From positions 4,909,501 to 4,973,500 of the forward strand of contig NZ_FXUY01000001.1 of the NCBI RefSeq assembly GCF_900182985.1: a stretch of 64,000 nucleotides of DNA, read 5' to 3'. Shown piece by piece: positions 2,511 through 15,476 of this stretch. Below the pieces are notes generated by a model, which was not told where the DNA came from, made no database searches, and saw only the letters and a list, made by a program, of their open reading frames with translations. Numbering within the stretch: position 1 is the first letter of the stretch; each line of letters begins with the position of its first letter. The DNA is from Pseudomonas helmanticensis. Lineage in GTDB: Bacteria; Pseudomonadota; Gammaproteobacteria; Pseudomonadales; Pseudomonadaceae. A program made the position numbers and the translations under genes.

Positions 2511-3077
2511 ATGACTGTTGAGTTTCGACCTGCGCGGCGTACGGATGCGCGTGAGATTGCCCGCTTGTTTCAGATTTCCTCGGAGGGGGCTGCGGATTAC
2601 ATCTGGAGTCAGTTGGCCGAGCCTGGGGAAGCGCTGCTGGATGTCGGCGAACGGCGTTATGCCCGCGACGACGTGGATTTCTCTTGGCAGAATTGCCTGA
2701 TCGCTGAGGCCAATGGGCGGGTCGTTGGCATGATGCACAGCTATGCCATGCGCGAAGATCCCGATCCGACGCCGCCCACCGATCCGGTGCTGGCGCCGTA
2801 TGCCGATATGGAAGTAGCGGATTCGTTGTACATCTCCAGCCTGGCGCTGCACGAAGGCTGGCGCAATCAGGGATTGGGCGTGCAGTTCCTCCAGCATGCC
2901 CAGGCGCGCGCCGATCAGTTGGCGCTCAACGGTTTGAGCCTGATCGACTATGCGGCCAATACCGGTGCGCGGCGTTTCTACGAGCGCCATGGCTTCGGCA
3001 TCATCAAAACCTGCCAGGTGGCACCGCATCCGCTGATTCGGGTGACCGGTGCGGCTTATCTGATGCACCGCGCTTAA
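2511..3077 (+). CDS. GNAT-family N-acetyltransferase
   Basis: A 188-residue GNAT-fold protein. The acetyl-CoA binding loop is visible as EGWRNQGLGVQFLQHAQARA (motif A, Q/R-x-x-G-x-G/A), followed by the C-terminal ARRFYERHGF segment typical of motif B. The ATG at 2511 follows AAAGGAATAATGTGA and gives the usual family length. It stands alone between a REP hairpin and the DnaA-box tract. The substrate cannot be read from sequence. It has no obvious tie to betaine catabolism. Confidence 0.85.
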   Translation: MTVEFRPARRTDAREIARLFQISSEGAADYIWSQLAEPGEALLDVGERRYARDDVDFSWQNCLIAEANGRVVGMMHSYAMREDPDPTPPTDPVLAPYADMEVADSLYISSLALHEGWRNQGLGVQFLQHAQARADQLALNGLSLIDYAANTGARRFYERHGFGIIKTCQVAPHPLIRVTGAAYLMHRA

Positions 3078-3084
3078 CGTTCGG

Positions 3085-3797
3085 TTATCCACCGGGCAGC
3101 GTTTACGCACAATCCCTGTTGGTCAGTCTGTGGATAAGGTGTTCGCGCCTCACTGCAAGTCACGTCAATCGTGGCTTGCAGCCCGCAGATCAAAAAACGA
3201 CCAGCCTAAGTGACGGTTTTTCCGAGGGTTTTCCTCAGGATAACGGCGTAAGTTGCCCCCAATCTCTGTTGGCGCTTCTGTGGATAAGATGTTCGCTATC
3301 CGCTGCGAGCCTTATAAAACGTGGCTTACAGAGTATTGGTCAATATTTGTTCAATTTACGGTTGTGTTCGACAAATTGTCTATCGAAGAGTGATTTTTCA
3401 CAGCCTTGCGGGTTTTTCCACAGACAAGGCAAAGTTACCCCCGATCTCTGTTGGCGCTTCTGTGGATAACGTGTTCGCCATCTGCTACAGGCCATGCAGG
3501 CCGGGGCTTACGAGGATATGATCAAAAAACGACCAATGCGCCTCGCAAACCGTCCTTCTGGATAAGTCACGATTTTTCTTCGCAAATCAGCGAGTTATTT
3601 TCCCACTCATCCACAGTTACCCCCATTTGCTGTGGGTGGCTATGTGGATAACTTGTTCGTCGAACCCGATAAGCCCCGCCCGCCATAGTGCAAACGGCAC
3701 TTGATCACATTTCATACAGTTCTAAGGCGTTGCCTTGACTTCGAATCCGCTGCTGTCTTCACTGCAATGGCACAAGGACAGCCGTCACTTATCCACA
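3085..3797. repeat. Ladder of DnaA-box-containing repeats (non-coding)
   Basis: This 949-bp stretch between the GNAT gene and the GMC fusion holds no convincing gene. It contains four perfect TGTGGATAA DnaA boxes at 3129, 3279, 3461 and 3643 (spacing 150, 182, 182) and one TTATCCACA at 3789. Near-matches lie at 3085 (TTATCCACC), 3414 (TTTTCCACA) and 3607 (TCATCCACA). Each box sits in a diverged repeat unit: an AGTTACCCCC-like start, TCTGTTGGCGCTTC, the box, then TGTTCG. In two units GATCAAAAAACGACC begins exactly 59 nt after the box start (3188, 3520). Known: TTATCCACA is the high-affinity DnaA site. Inferred: a DnaA-binding or titrating locus. Confidence 0.75.
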
Positions 3798-4026
3798 TCA
3801 GGTTCTGGGAGAACGCATGATGGATAGTCGCTCACACCGCTCCCCGCCCTTTCCCCGCAAGCGCACGCTGCGTCGTGCCGCCAATCAGCACGCTCGCCTG
3901 TAGCGCGCCAACCTGCCAGACCGCTGTGCTGTCGCCGGACTTGATCCGGTGGCCAGGTGTCCGTTCGCCCATCGATTGCAGGCAACCGCAGAGTTGCCCC
4001 ATCTGCCTGATTAGAGGATGCACCCC

Positions 4027-7000
4027 ATGACACGGATCGCAACGCCCATCAGCGAGATCAAGGAACACTACGATGTGATTGTCATTGGCTCGGGTTACGG
4101 CGGCGGCATTGCCGCGTCGCGCCTGTCCCGTGCCGGCAAACGTGTGTGCCTGCTCGAGCGCGGCCGGGAAATCCAGCCCGGCGAATACCCCAACACCATG
4201 ATCGCCGCCACCGAAGAGCTGCAGGTGCATGACCCTGATGGTCATATCGGTTCGCGCACCGGCCTGTTCGACTTGCACATCAACGCCCAGCAAAACGTCG
4301 TGGTCGGTTGCGGCCTCGGTGGCACGTCGCTGATCAATGCCAACGTAGCCCTTGAGCCCGAGCCTGGTGTGTTCGACGACCCGCGCTGGCCGCAAGCGGT
4401 GCGTGAACACCGCGACACGCTGCTCAAGGACGGTTATGCCCGCGCTCGCGAGATGCTCAAACCCACTCCTTATCCGAGCACTTCGCCGAACCTGCCCAAG
4501 CTCGACGCCAACAAGAAATCGGCTGATTTTCTCAAGCAAGGTGCGCATTTCTACAAGCCGCCGATCAACGTGACCTTCGACAAGTTGCCGAATAACCTCA
4601 ACCACGTCGGTGTCGAGCAGCTGCCGTGCAATCAGTGCGGCGACTGCGTCTCGGGCTGTAACAACAAAGCCAAGAACACCACGTTGATGAACTATCTGCC
4701 GGACGCCTGGAACCACGGCGCAGAGATTTTCTGTCAGGCCGAGGTGCGCCATCTGGAGCGCGACGGTGACGGCTGGATCGTGCATTTCCAGTACCTCGAC
4801 AGCGGGCGTGAAATGTTCAGCGCGCCGACATTGTTCGTGAAGGCCGATATCGTCGTGGTCTCCGCCGGCACACTTGGCTCGACCGAAATCCTCCTGCGTT
4901 CGCGCGACAAAGGCGTGGTGATGTCCGGCCAACTCGGCGAGAACATGAGCGGCAACGGCGACATCCTCGGCTTCGGCCACAACTGCGAGCAGGTCATCAA
5001 CGGCATCGGTTTCGGCGCACATTCGGCCAAGGAACTGCACCCGGTCGGCCCGTGCATCACCTCGGTCATCGACATGCGCACCGAAGGCGACTGGCGCAGC
5101 CGCATGGTCATCGAAGAAGGCTCGATCCCCGGCGCGCTCGGCCGGCCGATGGTGCCGAGCATGGCGGGTTTCGCCGAGATGATCGGCGTGGCCACCGATG
5201 ACAGCTTCAGCGGCAAGGTGAAATACAAGGAGCGCGAAGCCGAAAGCTTCCTGCGCGGCCCGTATTACGGCGCGCTGCACAACATGCAGACCTACCTGAT
5301 CATGAGCCATGACAGCGGTCAGGGGCGGATGGTCCTCGACAACAAAGATCAACTGCGCATCGATTGGCCCGGCGTTGGCGAGCAGGAGAACTTCAAACTC
5401 GGCAACCAGCGTTTGCAGCAGAGCACCAAGGCGCTCGGCGGCGTGTGGGTGGAGAATCCGATCTGGACCAAACTGCTCAAGCACAGCATCGTCTCCGTGC
5501 ATCCGTTGGGCGGTTGCGTGATGGGTGAAGACGCCGCGCAAGGCGTGGTCAATCACAAAGGCCAAGTGTTCAGCGGCGCCAGTGGCACCGATGTCTACAC
5601 CAATTTGTACGTGACTGACGGCGCGGTGATTCCGACGTCGCTGGCGGTCAATCCGTTGCTGACCATCTCTGCCGTGAGTGAACGCAACATGGGTTTGCTC
5701 GCCGCCGACCGTGGCTGGCAGATCGACTACACGCTGCCGTCGGCCCCGCGCAAACCGGTGGCGCCGCCAACCCTTGGCGTGCAGTTCACCGAAACCATGA
5801 AAGGATACTTCTCCCGCGCCTTCACCGCGGCACAAAGCACCGATCTGAAAGTCTACGAAGCGGCAGCCAAGCGCGGCGAGGCGGATAACTCGCCGATCGA
5901 CTTCACCCTGACCATCACCGCCAACGACCTCAACCGGATGATCAAGGAACCCGAGCACGCGGCCACGATTGTCGGCACCGTCATCGCGCCGGCGCTGTCA
6001 GCACAGCCGCTGACCGCGAGTAACGGCGTGTTCAACCTGTTCGAACAATTCGAGCAGCAGGTCGATACACGCCACATGAAATACGACATGAAACTGACTG
6101 CCGAGGACGGCAACGACTATTTCTTCAGCGCCTTCAAAACCGTGCCGGAAGACAATGGCGTGCTGAACATCTGGCACGACACCAGCACCCTTTATGTGAC
6201 CTTGTATCGCGGCCCCGACAAGACCGGCGAGGTGATCGGCTCCGGGGTGATGCACATTCATCCGACCGATTTCGCCAAGCAGATGACCACCATGAAGGTC
6301 CTCAATGCGCGTAACGAACGTGAGCGCATCGAAGGGCTGGCGCGGTTCGGCAAGTTCTTCGCCGGGATTCTCTGGGAAAGCTACGGCGGCGTGTTTGCCG
6401 GCGATATCTACTTCAATCCGGATGCACCGCCACGGTTGAAGCGGCCGCTGGATGCACCGGTTCCGGCAGTGCATTTTTTCCCCACCGAAGATGGCGTCGA
6501 ATTGCGCCTGACGCGTTATCAGGCCGGCAGCAAAGGCCCGGTGATGCTGGTGCATGGCTTGGGTGTGGGCTCGAACATCTTCTCCACTGATACCATTCAA
6601 ACCAACCTGCTCGAATACCTGTGCAAGCACGATTATGACGTGTGGCTGCTGGATTTTCGCGTGAGCATTCTGCTGCCGGCGAGCAAGAAGGAGTGGAACG
6701 GCGACCAGATCGCGCAATACGACTTCAAGGCTGCCATCGCGCAGATTCAGCAGCAAACCAACGCCCGCGATGTGCAGTGCGTGGTGCATTGCTACGGCGC
6801 GACGACGTTCTTCATGTCGCTACTCGCCGGTTTGCAGGGCGTGCGTTCGGTGGTCTGCTCGCAGATTGCTGCGGACACCGTGGTCGCTACCGCCACCGGA
6901 TTGAAAGCCGGTCTGCATTTGCCGGGGATGCTCGATGCCATCGGCATCAAGTCGATGACCGCTTACGCCGACAGCAAGGAAAACTGGTTCAACAAACTCT

Positions 7001-7479
7001 ACGACAAGGCCCTCAACGGTTATGCGCGGATCGAGGCGCAGGGTTATTGCACCAATCCGGTGTGCCACCGCATCACCTTCATGTACGCGTCGCTGTATCG
7101 CCACGACACCCTCAACGAAACCCTGCACGACAACCTGCACGAGTTGTTCGGCGAATCGAACATCGAGACCTTCGAGCATCTGGCGCTGATCGTGCGCAGA
7201 GGGCATCTGGTGGATTTCAAAGGCAACGATGTGTACATGCCGCACTTTGATCGGCTGACCATGCCGATCTGCTTTATCAGCGGGGCGGAGAACCAGTGTT
7301 ACCTGCCGGAAAGTACTCTCAAGACCTACCAGCGTTTGTGCGATATGCACGGGCCGGAGCGTTACAGCCGGCAAGTGGTACCGGGCTATGGCCACATTGA
7401 CTGCATGTTCGGCAAGAACGCAGTGGTCGATGTCTACCCGATCATCCTTGAACACCTGGAGAAAACTGCTCAGGCCTGA
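4027..7479 (+). CDS. GMC-family FAD oxidoreductase fused to an alpha/beta hydrolase
   Basis: A 1150-residue two-enzyme fusion. Residues 1-560 are a cholesterol-oxidase-like GMC oxidoreductase with the FAD dinucleotide motif GSGYGG (21-26), the substrate/FAD segment VGCGLGGTSLIN, and a C-terminal HPLGGCVMG...NLYVTDGAVIP...NPLLTISA block. A ferredoxin-like four-cysteine motif, CNQCGDCVSGC (Cys 201, 204, 207, 211), sits inside it. After a linker domain, an alpha/beta hydrolase starts near residue 838 (VMLVHGLGVG). Its nucleophile elbow reads VHCYG, with Cys 922 where Ser is usual, and it ends with GYGHIDCMFG carrying the catalytic His. No signal peptide is seen. The start at 4027 is preferred over 4018 because AGAGG lies 9 nt upstream. 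The substrate is unknown; a sterol-like or long-chain alcohol is a guess from the family. Confidence 0.85.
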   Translation: MTRIATPISEIKEHYDVIVIGSGYGGGIAASRLSRAGKRVCLLERGREIQPGEYPNTMIAATEELQVHDPDGHIGSRTGLFDLHINAQQNVVVGCGLGGTSLINANVALEPEPGVFDDPRWPQAVREHRDTLLKDGYARAREMLKPTPYPSTSPNLPKLDANKKSADFLKQGAHFYKPPINVTFDKLPNNLNHVGVEQLPCNQCGDCVSGCNNKAKNTTLMNYLPDAWNHGAEIFCQAEVRHLERDGDGWIVHFQYLDSGREMFSAPTLFVKADIVVVSAGTLGSTEILLRSRDKGVVMSGQLGENMSGNGDILGFGHNCEQVINGIGFGAHSAKELHPVGPCITSVIDMRTEGDWRSRMVIEEGSIPGALGRPMVPSMAGFAEMIGVATDDSFSGKVKYKEREAESFLRGPYYGALHNMQTYLIMSHDSGQGRMVLDNKDQLRIDWPGVGEQENFKLGNQRLQQSTKALGGVWVENPIWTKLLKHSIVSVHPLGGCVMGEDAAQGVVNHKGQVFSGASGTDVYTNLYVTDGAVIPTSLAVNPLLTISAVSERNMGLLAADRGWQIDYTLPSAPRKPVAPPTLGVQFTETMKGYFSRAFTAAQSTDLKVYEAAAKRGEADNSPIDFTLTITANDLNRMIKEPEHAATIVGTVIAPALSAQPLTASNGVFNLFEQFEQQVDTRHMKYDMKLTAEDGNDYFFSAFKTVPEDNGVLNIWHDTSTLYVTLYRGPDKTGEVIGSGVMHIHPTDFAKQMTTMKVLNARNERERIEGLARFGKFFAGILWESYGGVFAGDIYFNPDAPPRLKRPLDAPVPAVHFFPTEDGVELRLTRYQAGSKGPVMLVHGLGVGSNIFSTDTIQTNLLEYLCKHDYDVWLLDFRVSILLPASKKEWNGDQIAQYDFKAAIAQIQQQTNARDVQCVVHCYGATTFFMSLLAGLQGVRSVVCSQIAADTVVATATGLKAGLHLPGMLDAIGIKSMTAYADSKENWFNKLYDKALNGYARIEAQGYCTNPVCHRITFMYASLYRHDTLNETLHDNLHELFGESNIETFEHLALIVRRGHLVDFKGNDVYMPHFDRLTMPICFISGAENQCYLPESTLKTYQRLCDMHGPERYSRQVVPGYGHIDCMFGKNAVVDVYPIILEHLEKTAQA

Positions 7480-7486
7480 CCCTCTC

Positions 7487-7561
7487 CTGTAGGAGCTGCC
7501 GCAGGCTGCGAACTTTTGATCTTGAAGGGCAAAAGATCGCAGCCTGCGGCAGCTCCTACAG
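7487..7561. repeat. REP inverted repeat (GTAGGAGCTGCCGCAGGCTGCGA family)
   Basis: Facing arms GTAGGAGCTGCCGCAGGCTG and CAGCCTGCGGCAGCTCCTAC around a short AT-rich centre. It lies between the fusion gene and the cytochrome gene and could separate or modulate their transcripts. Confidence 0.9.
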
Positions 7562-7603
7562 GTGCAGTGTCGTGTTCGCAATTCAGACAAGGAAATGGAT
7601 GAT

Positions 7604-9472
7604 ATGGACAGCTACATCCGCTGGTTTCAACGCTTCATCTGGATCGGCATTGCCATGAACATGGTGTTCGCCATCCCCGCGCTGTTCGCGCCGGGGTTGC
7701 TGACATCGGTGGTCGGGCTGCCGCCGCAACTCTCCGACCCATGGCTGGAAAACGCCGGGATGCTGCTGGTCGGCATCAGCGTGTTTTACATGCCGTCGGG
7801 TTTCAACGCACCGCGATACGTGGTGCATTCCTGGCTGTGTGTGCTGACGCGGTTGATCGCGGTGATCTTCTGGATTTACCTGATCAACACCAGTATTCAA
7901 GGTTCGGTGTTCGTACCGATGTTGATGGGCGATCTGAGCTTCTTTCTGATTCTCGGCATTTTGCTGTACTTGGGCACCGCGCCGCAGAATCGGCCATGGG
8001 CGCTGCTCTGCGATGGCTGGCGCGAGTGGCGCGCGGCGTGGGCGCGGCAATGGCAGAGTCACGCCTTCAAAGTCGGCACGCTGATCGTGGTCGCGGTGCT
8101 TGGTTTTATCGGCTACGAAACCTGGTATCAGATGCTCCGCGTCGTTCCCGAGCAGGAATATGCCTCCGACGAAGACCACTACAAGTACGCCGCCATTGGC
8201 CTCGGTATCGAAGCGCGTATTCCGTATTACCTGTTCGCGGTGCTGCCGCAGATGTGCCCGGAGAAAATGCCCAAACCCGGTGGTTGGGAAGTCTTCGGCT
8301 TCCTCTTCGAGAGCGGCAAGGAGCTGCCGATCGGCATGGCCAAGCGACAGATCGGCTACCCGACGGTTGAGCCGAATTGCGCGCTGTGCCACACCGGTTC
8401 CTACCGCGCCAATGCCAGCGATGTCGCCGTCAATGTACCCAGTGCACCGGCCAATACCCTGCAACTGCAAGCCTTCCAGTGGTTCGCCTACGATTGCGCC
8501 AGCGACCCGAAATTCACCACCGACGCGGTGATGGCGGCGATCAACAGCAAGTTTCAGTTGGGCTTCTTCGAAAAACTCTACAACCGCTACCTGATCATGC
8601 CGATGGCAAAAAGCGCACTGCTCAAGCAGAAACAGGCCTACGCCTGGCAGAAACTGCGTCCGCAACAGGGCCCGGGCCGCACGGATACCTTCAACCCGAC
8701 GAAAATGGTCGTGTTCGGCTTCCCGGATGACTCGACCATCGGCACTGTCGATTTGCCGCAGGTGTGGAACCAGCAACCGCGCGAATCGATGTACCTGCAC
8801 TGGGATGGCAATAACAACAAGATCCACGAACGCAACTACGCCGCGGCAATGGCCGTCGGTGCGACGCCGGAATCGGTGTTGCCGCCGAGCTTCAATCGCG
8901 TGACCAACTGGCTGCTCGGGCACAAGGCGCCGGCGTGGCCGTGGGCGCTGGATCAAGCAAAAGTCGCGCAGGGCAAACCGATCTGGGAGGCCAACTGCGC
9001 CGCTTGTCATGACTTCGGCCGCGCCGATACCGGGCAGGTCACGACCAACATCGACCAGCTCGGCACCGATCCGCACCGGCTCGATTCGTTTACCACCGGT
9101 CTGGTGGCCGCGTTCCATTCCTTCAAGAAACCGCCGTTTGATTTCGGCGCGTATCGCAAAACTCAGAGCTACAGCAACACGCCCACCGACGGCGTCTGGT
9201 TGCGCGCGCCGTACCTGCACAACGGCTCGGTACCGACGCTGTGGGACTTGCTGCAACCAGCGGAAAAACGTCCGCAGACGTTCATCACCGGTTCCGACAT
9301 CTACGATCCGGTCAACGTTGGTTTTGTCACCAGCGGCGCCCAGGCCAAGGCCTCGGCCGACTTCAAATACGACACGCGGCTGGAGGGTAACCACAACAGC
9401 GGTCACCTGTACGGCACAACCCTGTCGGACGACGACAAACGCGCGCTCATCGAATTCATGAAAACCCTGTGA
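7604..9472 (+). CDS. Membrane-anchored di-haem cytochrome c
   Basis: A 622-residue protein with five predicted membrane helices in the first 170 residues (about 11-31, 46-63, 72-95, 98-122, 149-168), followed by a large soluble domain with two CxxCH haem-c sites: CALCH at 259-263 and CAACH at 465-469. An odd number of helices with the N-terminus inside puts the haem domain in the periplasm, as haem-c attachment requires. The C-terminal part (APYLHNGSVPTLWDLL) resembles di-haem peroxidase/MauG-like proteins. ATG 7604 is chosen because AAGGA lies 10 nt upstream; the in-frame ATG at 7595 is too close to it. It probably carries electrons from the neighbouring oxidoreductase, but the route is unproven. 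Confidence 0.82.
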   Translation: MDSYIRWFQRFIWIGIAMNMVFAIPALFAPGLLTSVVGLPPQLSDPWLENAGMLLVGISVFYMPSGFNAPRYVVHSWLCVLTRLIAVIFWIYLINTSIQGSVFVPMLMGDLSFFLILGILLYLGTAPQNRPWALLCDGWREWRAAWARQWQSHAFKVGTLIVVAVLGFIGYETWYQMLRVVPEQEYASDEDHYKYAAIGLGIEARIPYYLFAVLPQMCPEKMPKPGGWEVFGFLFESGKELPIGMAKRQIGYPTVEPNCALCHTGSYRANASDVAVNVPSAPANTLQLQAFQWFAYDCASDPKFTTDAVMAAINSKFQLGFFEKLYNRYLIMPMAKSALLKQKQAYAWQKLRPQQGPGRTDTFNPTKMVVFGFPDDSTIGTVDLPQVWNQQPRESMYLHWDGNNNKIHERNYAAAMAVGATPESVLPPSFNRVTNWLLGHKAPAWPWALDQAKVAQGKPIWEANCAACHDFGRADTGQVTTNIDQLGTDPHRLDSFTTGLVAAFHSFKKPPFDFGAYRKTQSYSNTPTDGVWLRAPYLHNGSVPTLWDLLQPAEKRPQTFITGSDIYDPVNVGFVTSGAQAKASADFKYDTRLEGNHNSGHLYGTTLSDDDKRALIEFMKTL

Positions 9473-9496
9473 ACCTTACGGAGAGAGGATTACGCC

Positions 9497-10741
9497 ATGT
9501 CACTGGTCAGTCATTGGGAACACGAGTACGACAAGGTCAAAGTGCGCATTCACGGCTTGTTCACGCGCATGGAAATGGCCTGGATGAAACTCATCAGCGA
9601 GCTGGAGCCGCAGGAGTTTCAAGCGATCATCAAGTTGCTGCAGCGCGGCCATGATCAGGCGCAGTACGTGCTGAAAAATGGCGAGTTGCCGGACGACGAA
9701 CCCGCCGTACCGTGGGAGTTGTCCCATGGTCTGTCGATCCTGCGTATTGGTAACGCCACACCGCTGCCGCAATCGCCGGATCAACTGGCGACCCGGGTGC
9801 TCAAGGACGGCACGATGCTTGGCTGTCGCAAGTGGGAACTGCTCGATCTGCTGTGGAGTGAGGCGCTGCTGAAGTGGATCGAGAACCTGCGCCATCACGC
9901 GACGTTCGGCACTGACCCGGCGGTGGTGCAAATGGACCGTGAGGTGACCCTGGCGATTGCCGGTGACTGGGGCACCGGGCCGTTCGACAGCCACGCACCA
10001 GCGGTGTCGGTGGCCAATCAGATGCAACTGGCTCAGGCCGATTTCACCATTCATCTGGGCGATGTGTATTACGCCGGCAGTCATTCCCAGGAAGACGTCG
10101 ACATGGCGGGCTGGCCGATGGGGACGCACGGCTCGTTCACCCTCAACTCGAACCACGAGATGTACAGCGGCGCCCACGGCTACTTTAAGGAACTGGCCAA
10201 GCGTTTTCCCGGGCAGCAGGGCACCAGTTATTTCGCGCTGATCAATGATGACTGGCTGGTGGTCGGGCTGGATTCCGCCTACGCCTCGGACGCGATGAAC
10301 CTGTACATGGACGGCATGTTGAACGAGCCGCAGATCGAGTGGATGAAAGGTCTGCCGAAACGCAAAAAAATCATGGTGCTCAGCCATCATCAGGGCTTCG
10401 ATATTTCCGGGCACAACGAGACTGCGTTGTATCAACCGGTGTGCGATGCACTGGGGCGTGAGCCGGACTATTGGTATTGGGGGCATCTGCACAACGGCAT
10501 CGTTTATGCGCAGCAGGGCGGTTTGCACGCGCGTTGCGCAGGGCACGGGGCGATTCCCTATGGCAGTTCCAGTGAGCTGAACGGGCATTCGCGGGTGTTG
10601 TGGTCGGAGACGCAGGATGCCAAGGATCCGGCGTATCCGCTGCGGGTGTTGAACGGGTACGCGAAGATCCGCTTGGTGGGGGAGGAGATATTTGAGGAGT
10701 TTATTGGTGAGGATGGATCGGTGAGGTGGTCATCCAAATGA
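9497..10741 (+). CDS. Calcineurin-like metallophosphoesterase
   Basis: A 414-residue protein starting 24 bp after the cytochrome gene, with GGAGAGAGG as ribosome binding site. The metallophosphoesterase motifs appear in order: GDWG (156-159), LGDVYYAG (from 188), SNHE (218-221), SHHQ (296-299) and GHLH (329-332). The first motif has Trp-Gly where Asp-x-His is usual, as seen in some purple-acid-phosphatase-like members. About 145 residues of unrecognised helical sequence precede the catalytic domain. No signal peptide or membrane helix is seen, so a cytoplasmic enzyme is expected. It probably forms an operon with the two genes upstream; its substrate and its link to them are unknown. Confidence 0.85.
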   Translation: MSLVSHWEHEYDKVKVRIHGLFTRMEMAWMKLISELEPQEFQAIIKLLQRGHDQAQYVLKNGELPDDEPAVPWELSHGLSILRIGNATPLPQSPDQLATRVLKDGTMLGCRKWELLDLLWSEALLKWIENLRHHATFGTDPAVVQMDREVTLAIAGDWGTGPFDSHAPAVSVANQMQLAQADFTIHLGDVYYAGSHSQEDVDMAGWPMGTHGSFTLNSNHEMYSGAHGYFKELAKRFPGQQGTSYFALINDDWLVVGLDSAYASDAMNLYMDGMLNEPQIEWMKGLPKRKKIMVLSHHQGFDISGHNETALYQPVCDALGREPDYWYWGHLHNGIVYAQQGGLHARCAGHGAIPYGSSSELNGHSRVLWSETQDAKDPAYPLRVLNGYAKIRLVGEEIFEEFIGEDGSVRWSSK

Positions 10742-14800: not shown

Positions 14801-15476
14801 GATCGTTCCCACGCTCTGCGTGGGAATGCAGCCGTCGACGCTCCGCGTCCCTTATCAGTACCAGCACTGAACCTCAATCAGTCCCGGCATTCCCACGTAG
14901 TTGCTGGCGCTCGAATAACGCCAATGCTCCGGCAAATCCACATACCCGCGTTTGACCGGGTTGTTGTGAATGTATTCAAGTTTCTGGCGCATGACCGATT
15001 CGCTATAAACCATCTCTGCGTGGGAGCCTTCCTGCCACAGCTGATACACGCGATCCTGCTTGTGTGCGCGTTTGCTGAAGCGAAGCCGTTGCAGTGCTTT
15101 ATCAGCGCCTTTGCTTTGCAGGTCATCAATAATCTGTCGAGCGGTGAAAGATTTGAACTGACTGAGACATTTGCTCAGGTCGGGCGCCTGGGCGACGAAG
15201 TGAAGATGGTTTTCCAGGATCACGTAGCCGTACAGTTTCAGATCGTGATGAGTCTGTTGATAACGCCAGCAGTTGAGCAGGTGGTCGACGATGTAGGGGC
15301 GGATGAACAGCGGTAACCATTCCATGATCGTGCAGGTCAGAAAATGCGGTTTGTCGGTTTCGGTAATGGTGTAGCGGCTGCGGCCCATGGGATTCTTCCT
15401 TGAATCTTGCGGTGCGACGGGAATGGAACGCGGAGCGTCCCGGGATGCGTTACCACGCGGAGCGTGGGAGTGATCA
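14801..15476 (-). mobile_element. RAYT unit: tyrosine transposase gene flanked by inverted REP halves
   Basis: The transposase gene is bounded on the left by a REP half (14801-14853, GATCGTTCCCACGCTCTGCG...) and on the right by the opposite half (about 15421-15476, ending CGCGGAGCGTGGGAGTGATC). The halves look like one REPIN opened by the gene. Complete REPINs of the same family lie just outside on both sides. Known: RAYT genes are normally single-copy and flanked by the REP family they mobilise. Confidence 0.85.
14855..15388 (-). CDS. REP-associated tyrosine transposase (RAYT, Y1_Tnp/IS200-like)
   Basis: A 177-residue single-domain HUH transposase. The metal-binding HUH motif is His-Leu-His at 61-63 (ENHLHFVAQAP). 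The catalytic Tyr is Tyr 139 in YIHNNPVKRG, the signature of the RAYT family. The start at 15388 has AAGGAAG upstream. The reading frame is full length with key residues intact, so it may be active. By family knowledge it nicks and joins single-stranded REP hairpins and spreads REPINs. Its flanking REP halves belong to the GTTCCCACGC family also found at 23725 and 30497, the likely substrates. Confidence 0.93.
   Translation of the reverse strand: MGRSRYTITETDKPHFLTCTIMEWLPLFIRPYIVDHLLNCWRYQQTHHDLKLYGYVILENHLHFVAQAPDLSKCLSQFKSFTARQIIDDLQSKGADKALQRLRFSKRAHKQDRVYQLWQEGSHAEMVYSESVMRQKLEYIHNNPVKRGYVDLPEHWRYSSASNYVGMPGLIEVQCWY

Follow-up and report, generated by a model that had tools for sequence, protein, structure and literature searches.

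A conserved three-gene locus of Pseudomonas helmanticensis encoding a GMC flavoenzyme–acid-lipase-fold fusion, a RoxA-like di-haem protein and a metallophosphoesterase: a possible lipid-processing operon

In the flavin adenine dinucleotide (FAD)-dependent glucose dehydrogenase of Burkholderia, the cysteines that bind the [3Fe-4S] cluster are spaced C-x5-C-x3-C, according to PMC6719666. The di-haem proteins PA2077/PA2078 (FadCcp) carry F301Q and are exported via a cleaved signal (PMC4496055), the F317Y variant of RoxA has a Tyr-ligated haem (PMC6797691), and the membrane peroxidase YhjA has been proposed to take electrons from quinol (PMC10301912). Relatives of such enzymes, together with counterparts of cholesterol oxidase, lysosomal acid lipase and purple acid phosphatase, are encoded by three consecutive genes of Pseudomonas helmanticensis, at positions 4027-10741 of a 64,000-nucleotide stretch (the window; contig NZ_FXUY01000001.1, positions 4,909,501 to 4,973,500) of a 6.53 Mb chromosome whose closest named relative in our listing, which may leave out records from the window's own genome, is Pseudomonas sp. 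DTU12.3 (99%). The set combines known kinds of enzyme in a new way and points to an undescribed route of processing some fat-like molecule. As the original prediction for this DNA had it, no pathway with these three genes seems to have been described: searches of the open-licence PubMed Central (PMC) literature aimed at the set found no title that describes it. In the open reading frame (ORF) list each of the three genes is intact, and they run in one direction, as had been claimed, with the following features:

4027..7479, + strand: fusion of a GMC flavoenzyme, a middle domain and an acid-lipase-fold domain, 1150 amino acids (aa) (ORF, Pfam/NCBIfam scans, protein relatives, profile alignment; alternative in-frame ATG at 4018)
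4033..5718, + strand: GMC FAD domain, model residues 5-566 (alignment, PDB sequence and structure matches)
4627..4659, + strand: cysteine motif C-x2-C-x2-C-x3-C, unchanged in all 45 aligned sequences (spacing compared with PMC6719666)
5773..6390 (about), + strand: middle domain, modelled as mainly beta, which has a gene of its own in Pseudonocardia (30% identity)
6433..7476, + strand: acid-lipase-fold domain (fold match, alignments)
7595..9472, + strand: membrane-anchored RoxA-like di-haem c protein (the cytochrome), start at 7595 or 7604
7595..8137, + strand: its helical N-terminal part (model and hydropathy scan; read as five membrane helices)
8378..8392, + strand: first haem c motif, CALCH (CxxCH, invariant in 43 aligned sequences)
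8798..8839, + strand: HWDGN...ERNY stretch, His/Tyr placed at RoxA Phe301/Phe317 and Trp at Trp302 (weak alignment, low model confidence)
8996..9010, + strand: second haem c motif, CAACH (CxxCH, invariant in 43 aligned sequences)
9497..10741, + strand: metallophosphoesterase, 414 aa (PF00149; metal-site motifs invariant in 36 aligned sequences)

ATG 4027 is the better start for the fusion because a GAGG stretch resembling a ribosome site lies immediately next to the alternative ATG at 4018, and the resulting 1150 aa are the typical length among its relatives. Gaps of 115-124 and 24 bases separate the fusion from the cytochrome and the cytochrome from the phosphoesterase, respectively. Between 3000 and 11000, neither promoter-like sites (1 versus 2.7 in shuffles) nor terminator-like sites (7 versus 7.3) were in excess.

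Inheritance of the three genes was followed with profiles A1-A3 (fusion, cytochrome and phosphoesterase; 45, 43 and 36 sequences), each searched against 169 Pseudomonas genomes at E<=1e-200, 1e-100 and 1e-80, respectively. The fusion was found in 34 genomes, the cytochrome in the identical 34, and the phosphoesterase in those and one more (G1447); since the three genes co-occur in 34 of the 169 genomes, chance grouping is excluded. When the loci of the best 80 of 135 relatives were compared (74 from Pseudomonas, six from elsewhere), all three genes were complete, in the same order and on a single strand in 70 of the 74 Pseudomonas loci, where the gaps had medians of 117.5 and 30 nt. The exceptions are a locus in which the cytochrome match falls in two pieces (L051), one at which the contig ends (L085), that of Pseudomonas sp. 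LD120, which has no cytochrome (L089), and one with a cytochrome remnant (L101). The original prediction had named a lack of co-conservation among related strains as evidence against it, and co-conservation is what was found. All three genes also occur in order in Pokkaliibacter (L106) and in an Ignavibacteria metagenome-assembled genome (MAG; L109), Zooshikella (L099) has the fusion and the phosphoesterase, and in the other three loci (L108, L112 and L113) both partners of the window's type are missing. More three-gene cases are suggested by contigs of equal size in the lists of the best 120 relatives of each protein (149978 bases, Andreprevotia; 30942; 10148; and 178439, the last close to Pseudomonas). 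Outside Pseudomonas the fusion is rare. Counting in each case the window's own or the centre genome, it was present in 7 of 398 genomes of the window's phylum (E<=1e-150; G422 has the GMC domain only), in 8 of 369 of its class (E<=1e-100; G836, G944 and G1036 matched over the GMC part only, and the G944 protein, L140, contains the hydrolase part too), in 3 of 247 from the phylum to which the Ignavibacteria MAG belongs (the hydrolase part being missing from one, G577), in 2 of 240 from the class that includes G297 (one being a single GMC gene) and in 1 of 151 from the order that includes G577, namely G577 itself; among 72,556 plasmid records, nine matched at E<=1e-60, seven covering 80% or more of the query.

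The phosphoesterase has counterparts well beyond Pseudomonas. Of 22 non-Pseudomonas loci encoding the GMC and middle domains (L099, L106, L108, L109, L112, L113, L116-L119, L125, L126, L129-L134, L136-L138 and L140), 15 have a metallophosphatase-type gene at most two genes from the fusion, on the same strand in 14, neighbours being ORFs of at least 90 codons chosen mechanically by length. The sample leaves out the Pseudomonas loci, L135 (whose genes are split and near which no metallophosphatase is annotated), the very long GMC proteins L011/L123, L139 and L141, the single GMC genes L120, L142 and L143, weak GMC-domain matches (L010, L012-L030, L122, L124) and second copies of counted loci (L114, L115, L127, L128). 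The genes concerned are of several kinds: the window's type, counted by similarity to the window gene, in L099, L106 and L109; PhoD types in L106, L108, L112, L113 and L137; a type shared by L118, L125, L126 and L131, which is present too beside the single GMC gene of L142; another in L134 and L140; and single cases in L117 and L133. BLAST across these groups gave no match at E<=1e-3 except marginally via the L109 proteins (best E 2.6e-5). In the window genome, taken as the one background and with PhoD genes not counted, 11 PF00149 genes stand among an estimated 5,800 or so, so that the chance of finding one within two places of a given gene is below 1%. The recurrent linkage of the fusion to metallophosphatases is taken as the strongest functional signal, and the phosphate-ester step that had been predicted gains support from the association with different enzymes of this kind. 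These comparisons show, at the level of sequence, a co-inherited unit in Pseudomonas and a fusion linked to metallophosphatases in other phyla. A DUF6765 gene was confirmed beside two of the loci, L108 and L117; in L119 the 339-aa neighbour of the fusion, considered as a third, was rejected for want of a Pfam match, and the name DUF6765 was not found in open-licence PMC papers.

Pfam matches to GMC_oxred_N/C and Abhydrolase_1 within one ORF bear out the view that a cholesterol-oxidase-like flavoenzyme is joined to a hydrolase, and reveal nothing of the middle domain, which had not been mentioned before and for which no Pfam family matched at E<=0.01 (the sole weak match being MDH, E 0.064). 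The best PDB sequence relatives of the GMC domain, and of the same fold, are class I (GMC) cholesterol oxidases of Streptomyces (1b4v, 4u2l). HMMER alignment sets the HPLGG and VNPLLTI stretches of the fusion on those of the active-site His447 and Asn485, and the corresponding H494 (5500-5502) and N544 (5650-5652; A1 numbering) are invariant in 45 aligned sequences; the Glu361 stretch of cholesterol oxidase lies outside the alignment. Unlike cholesterol oxidase, the fusion has the cysteine motif and two further modules, and no signal peptide or Tat motif was seen on it by eye, without a signal predictor. Three of its cysteines fit the C-x5-C-x3-C spacing of the glucose and fructose dehydrogenases, and there is one extra invariant Cys. 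An extra Cys of this kind is found in the motifs of [4Fe-4S] ferredoxins, and the four cysteines are predicted ligands of such a cluster. The C-terminal module shares the fold of the whole domain of lysosomal acid lipase and gastric lipase, from which it differs in being joined to a flavoenzyme and in having a Cys nucleophile (6790-6792) at the place of the Ser of lysosomal acid lipase, in every hydrolase domain aligned, and an Asn (7291-7293) at the probable acid place, with the His at 7393-7395. The Asn stands in a GxxN motif conserved across the family, and the triad-Asp stretch is outside the alignment to acid lipase. A lipid-like substrate, as originally proposed, here an ester or alcohol, fits both the sequence likeness to cholesterol oxidases and the acid-lipase fold. 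In Pseudonocardia (L135) the three modules are encoded as separate genes. L118:2312-7601 holds a tandem pair of genes, the first for a single GMC protein and the second for a full fusion, and at L139:7433-13705, L141:5468-11494 and L123:8233-14280 proteins of about 2000 aa, each adjoining a gene of about 600 aa, combine this family's GMC domain with further parts.

The calcineurin-like phosphoesterase was likewise recognised correctly: it scores 29.4 bits against PF00149 (cut-off 21.5) and keeps the metal-site motifs of purple-acid-phosphatase-like metallophosphoesterases, with a weak PDB match to tartrate-resistant acid phosphatase (E 1.6e-4). It differs from these enzymes in its N-terminal part of about 150 residues ahead of the Pfam match, and no export signal was seen on it. 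For the cytochrome, the two haem c motifs stand, and the five helices are a reading rather than a measurement: long helices are predicted ahead of the haem domain at residues 2-31, 50-71, 76-99, 103-127 and 156-181, further helices at 33-40 and 134-153, and the hydropathy scan has four peaks. It has the RoxA-like Pfam domain, RoxA being its best fold match, and reaches 54 bits against NF050033 (RoxA rubber oxygenase), whose cut-off is 1000; its protein group includes lipid oxygenases. With FadCcp it shares the RoxA-like domain and the two haem c motifs, and differs in having several membrane helices instead of a cleaved signal, and His instead of Gln before the Trp. It appears to have His/Tyr where RoxA has Phe/Phe, Tyr being aligned at 317 and His placed at 301 by its adjacency to the aligned Trp302, in an alignment that reaches only 17.7 bits over this stretch. 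A second di-haem protein of the RoxA group is encoded in the same genome (G000:C1:2417559-2418560, L033), in which Gln-Trp occupies the Phe301-Trp302 position, in line with what PMC4496055 reports for PA2077.

We read the operon, with a probability of roughly 0.42, as a lipid-processing system in which cytosolic ester cleavage and alcohol oxidation are combined with a phosphoesterase and an optional membrane di-haem enzyme; from linkage, motifs and folds, which are observed, we infer the chemistry and the compartments. The Cys-His hydrolase module would cleave, or transfer, the acyl ester of a hydrophobic alcohol in the cytosol, the middle domain possibly helping to hold the lipid. The GMC module would then oxidise the freed alcohol, electrons passing from FAD to the Fe-S cluster and on to an acceptor, for which a quinone would be the first choice. 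The phosphoesterase would take phosphate off the same lipid, before or after, and the di-haem protein, where present, might be a periplasmic enzyme acting on lipid hydroperoxides or peroxide. Candidate substrates would be esters or phosphates of isoprenoid, sterol-like or long-chain alcohols. More tentatively, the same features could be drawn together as an undescribed and widely scattered lipid system in which a Cys-His-Asn acid-lipase module hydrolyses or transfers and a FAD/[4Fe-4S] GMC module oxidises the product, metallophosphatases have been recruited repeatedly and independently, and a membrane di-haem lipid-hydroperoxide enzyme belongs to one branch.

Several observations weigh against this lipid-processing operon. 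No metallophosphatase-type gene lies within two genes of the fusion in 7 of the 22 loci (L116, L119, L129, L130, L132, L136 and L138), and 5 of the 15 counted cases depend on Pfam matches below cut-off, motifs or similarity alone: L108, L131 (named metallophosphoesterase in RefSeq) and L137 match below cut-off, and there is no Pfam match for L133, which has four metal motifs, or for L118, which is similar to L131 and L142 and whose gene is divergent and two genes away from the fusion. The fusion scores 156.3 bits against the cholesterol oxidase family NF058674, far under its cut-off of 850. The iron-sulfur cluster is predicted solely from cysteine spacing, the probable catalytic Asn was placed through alignment within the family and not against a solved lipase, and the model of the haem part is low in confidence at several stretches, its alignment to RoxA being weak. 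The haems of c-type cytochromes are expected in the periplasm, so the fusion and the haem domain should occupy different compartments. Finally, every lipid-related neighbour is a single case.

Such neighbours occur at L126:7938-16679, in a genome from the phylum of the Ignavibacteria MAG, where the run holds the GMC-middle protein, the metallophosphatase, a patatin, a DUF4345 and two other small membrane proteins, an acetoacetate-decarboxylase-like gene and a separate Cys hydrolase, with a ketosynthase III gene at some distance. Together with the Cys in place of Ser in all aligned hydrolase domains, this run could speak for biosynthesis, the lipase module being an acyltransferase and the operon building or tailoring a membrane or secreted lipid. 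We consider this unlikely, as the run is found once and neither an acyl-carrier nor a CoA-ligase gene could be recognised in the scanned neighbours in the window.

A further explanation, put forward in the original prediction, is that a GMC dehydrogenase passes electrons directly to the di-haem cytochrome and so into the respiratory chain, on the pattern of the fructose and glucose dehydrogenase complexes. The glucose dehydrogenase of Burkholderia and the fructose dehydrogenase of Gluconobacter are indeed among the best structural matches of the GMC domain, with fructose dehydrogenase in the top rows; the cysteine motif resembles an Fe-S site, the fusion and cytochrome genes are adjacent and co-inherited, and in L136 a different di-haem peroxidase gene, of the CCP_MauG type (5966-7021), is the next ORF downstream of the fusion, with no RoxA-like cytochrome adjoining. 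However, the fusion lacks a visible Tat or other signal while the haems should be periplasmic, and no cytochrome relative (E<=1e-20) was found in three of five fusion-bearing genomes searched, nor at the LD120 locus. No hitchhiker-subunit or triheme-subunit gene of the glucose or fructose dehydrogenase type was found in the window surroundings of the fusion, where a GNAT gene lies upstream and the di-haem gene downstream, and there is no small extra subunit gene between the three genes; the cytochrome itself resembles RoxA and has two haems, unlike a triheme carrier. The link of the flavoenzyme to electron transport keeps its structural and L136 parallels, direct transfer into the cytochrome is weakly supported, and we think this explanation improbable.

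We hold equally improbable that the GMC enzyme is an O2-using oxidase producing H2O2, which the membrane di-haem protein would remove as a quinol-linked peroxidase. The nearest GMC sequences are cholesterol oxidases, the cytochrome passes the cut-off of the di-haem peroxidase subfamily NF040606 (202.7 bits against 150), the His/Tyr placed by alignment at the distal haem positions recalls the Tyr-ligated haem of RoxA F317Y, the CCP_MauG gene adjoins the fusion in L136, and a quinol-fed enzyme has a precedent in the proposal for YhjA (PMC10301912). Yet the conserved Fe-S-like motif suggests a dehydrogenase, and the cytochrome is optional across relatives. That the genes share no function and stay together in Pseudomonas only through a single gain between the etf and gbc genes, as might be suggested by the convergent gbcA that 70 of 74 Pseudomonas loci have at most 3 kb downstream, is most improbable, because their order is kept in Pokkaliibacter and Ignavibacteria without this flank, the equal-sized contigs suggest more three-gene cases, and metallophosphatases from several families recur beside the fusion.

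The flanks are etfA/etfB and the GNAT gene upstream and the convergent gbcA, with gbcB, downstream (etfA, etfB, gbcA and gbcB having NCBIfam matches above cut-off). A functional tie to glycine betaine breakdown was rejected, the flanks being seen in none of the six non-Pseudomonas loci. A REP-associated (RAYT) transposase-like ORF, recognised by eye, lies at 14855-15388 on the - strand. Two conserved features stand just ahead of the fusion:

3817..3903, + strand: 28-codon ORF ending RRAANQHARL, a possible leader peptide whose C-terminus is conserved upstream of the fusion
3981..3998, + strand: leader hairpin GGCAAC-N6-GTTGCC, conserved just ahead of the fusion start codon, a possible regulatory element

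A pattern search found the RRAANQHARL ORF in 54 of 69 loci, all 54 being among the 65 from Pseudomonas. The hairpin stem is exact in 56 of 71 loci, with nine variants and six not located by script, and two-sided stem changes seemingly occur in L080, L085 and L098, as judged by eye; no Rfam family matched the stretch 3000-4100, even with E values up to 2 allowed. Farther upstream, five perfect DnaA boxes (TTATCCACA) lie in the intergenic DNA at 3129-3797, four of them in repeats spaced 150, 182 and 182 bases. At least three boxes occur in the corresponding kilobase of 63 of 69 loci, that is 63 of 65 from Pseudomonas and none of four others. Boxes are frequent elsewhere too, since the window as a whole contains 14 where shuffling predicts 0.12. 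The stretch may be a datA-like DnaA-binding locus.

If the lipid-processing operon is real, ester cleavage or transfer, alcohol oxidation and phosphate removal would be joined in one operon that is present in 34 of 169 sampled Pseudomonas genomes and, partly or wholly, in other phyla. The ferredoxin-like cysteine motif in a GMC enzyme bears on how GMC enzymes choose between oxygen and a respiratory acceptor, and both the acid-lipase fold with a Cys nucleophile and the GMC enzyme with the cysteine motif are directly testable. Through its natural substrate, a lipid of soil- and plant-associated bacteria that has been overlooked might come to light.

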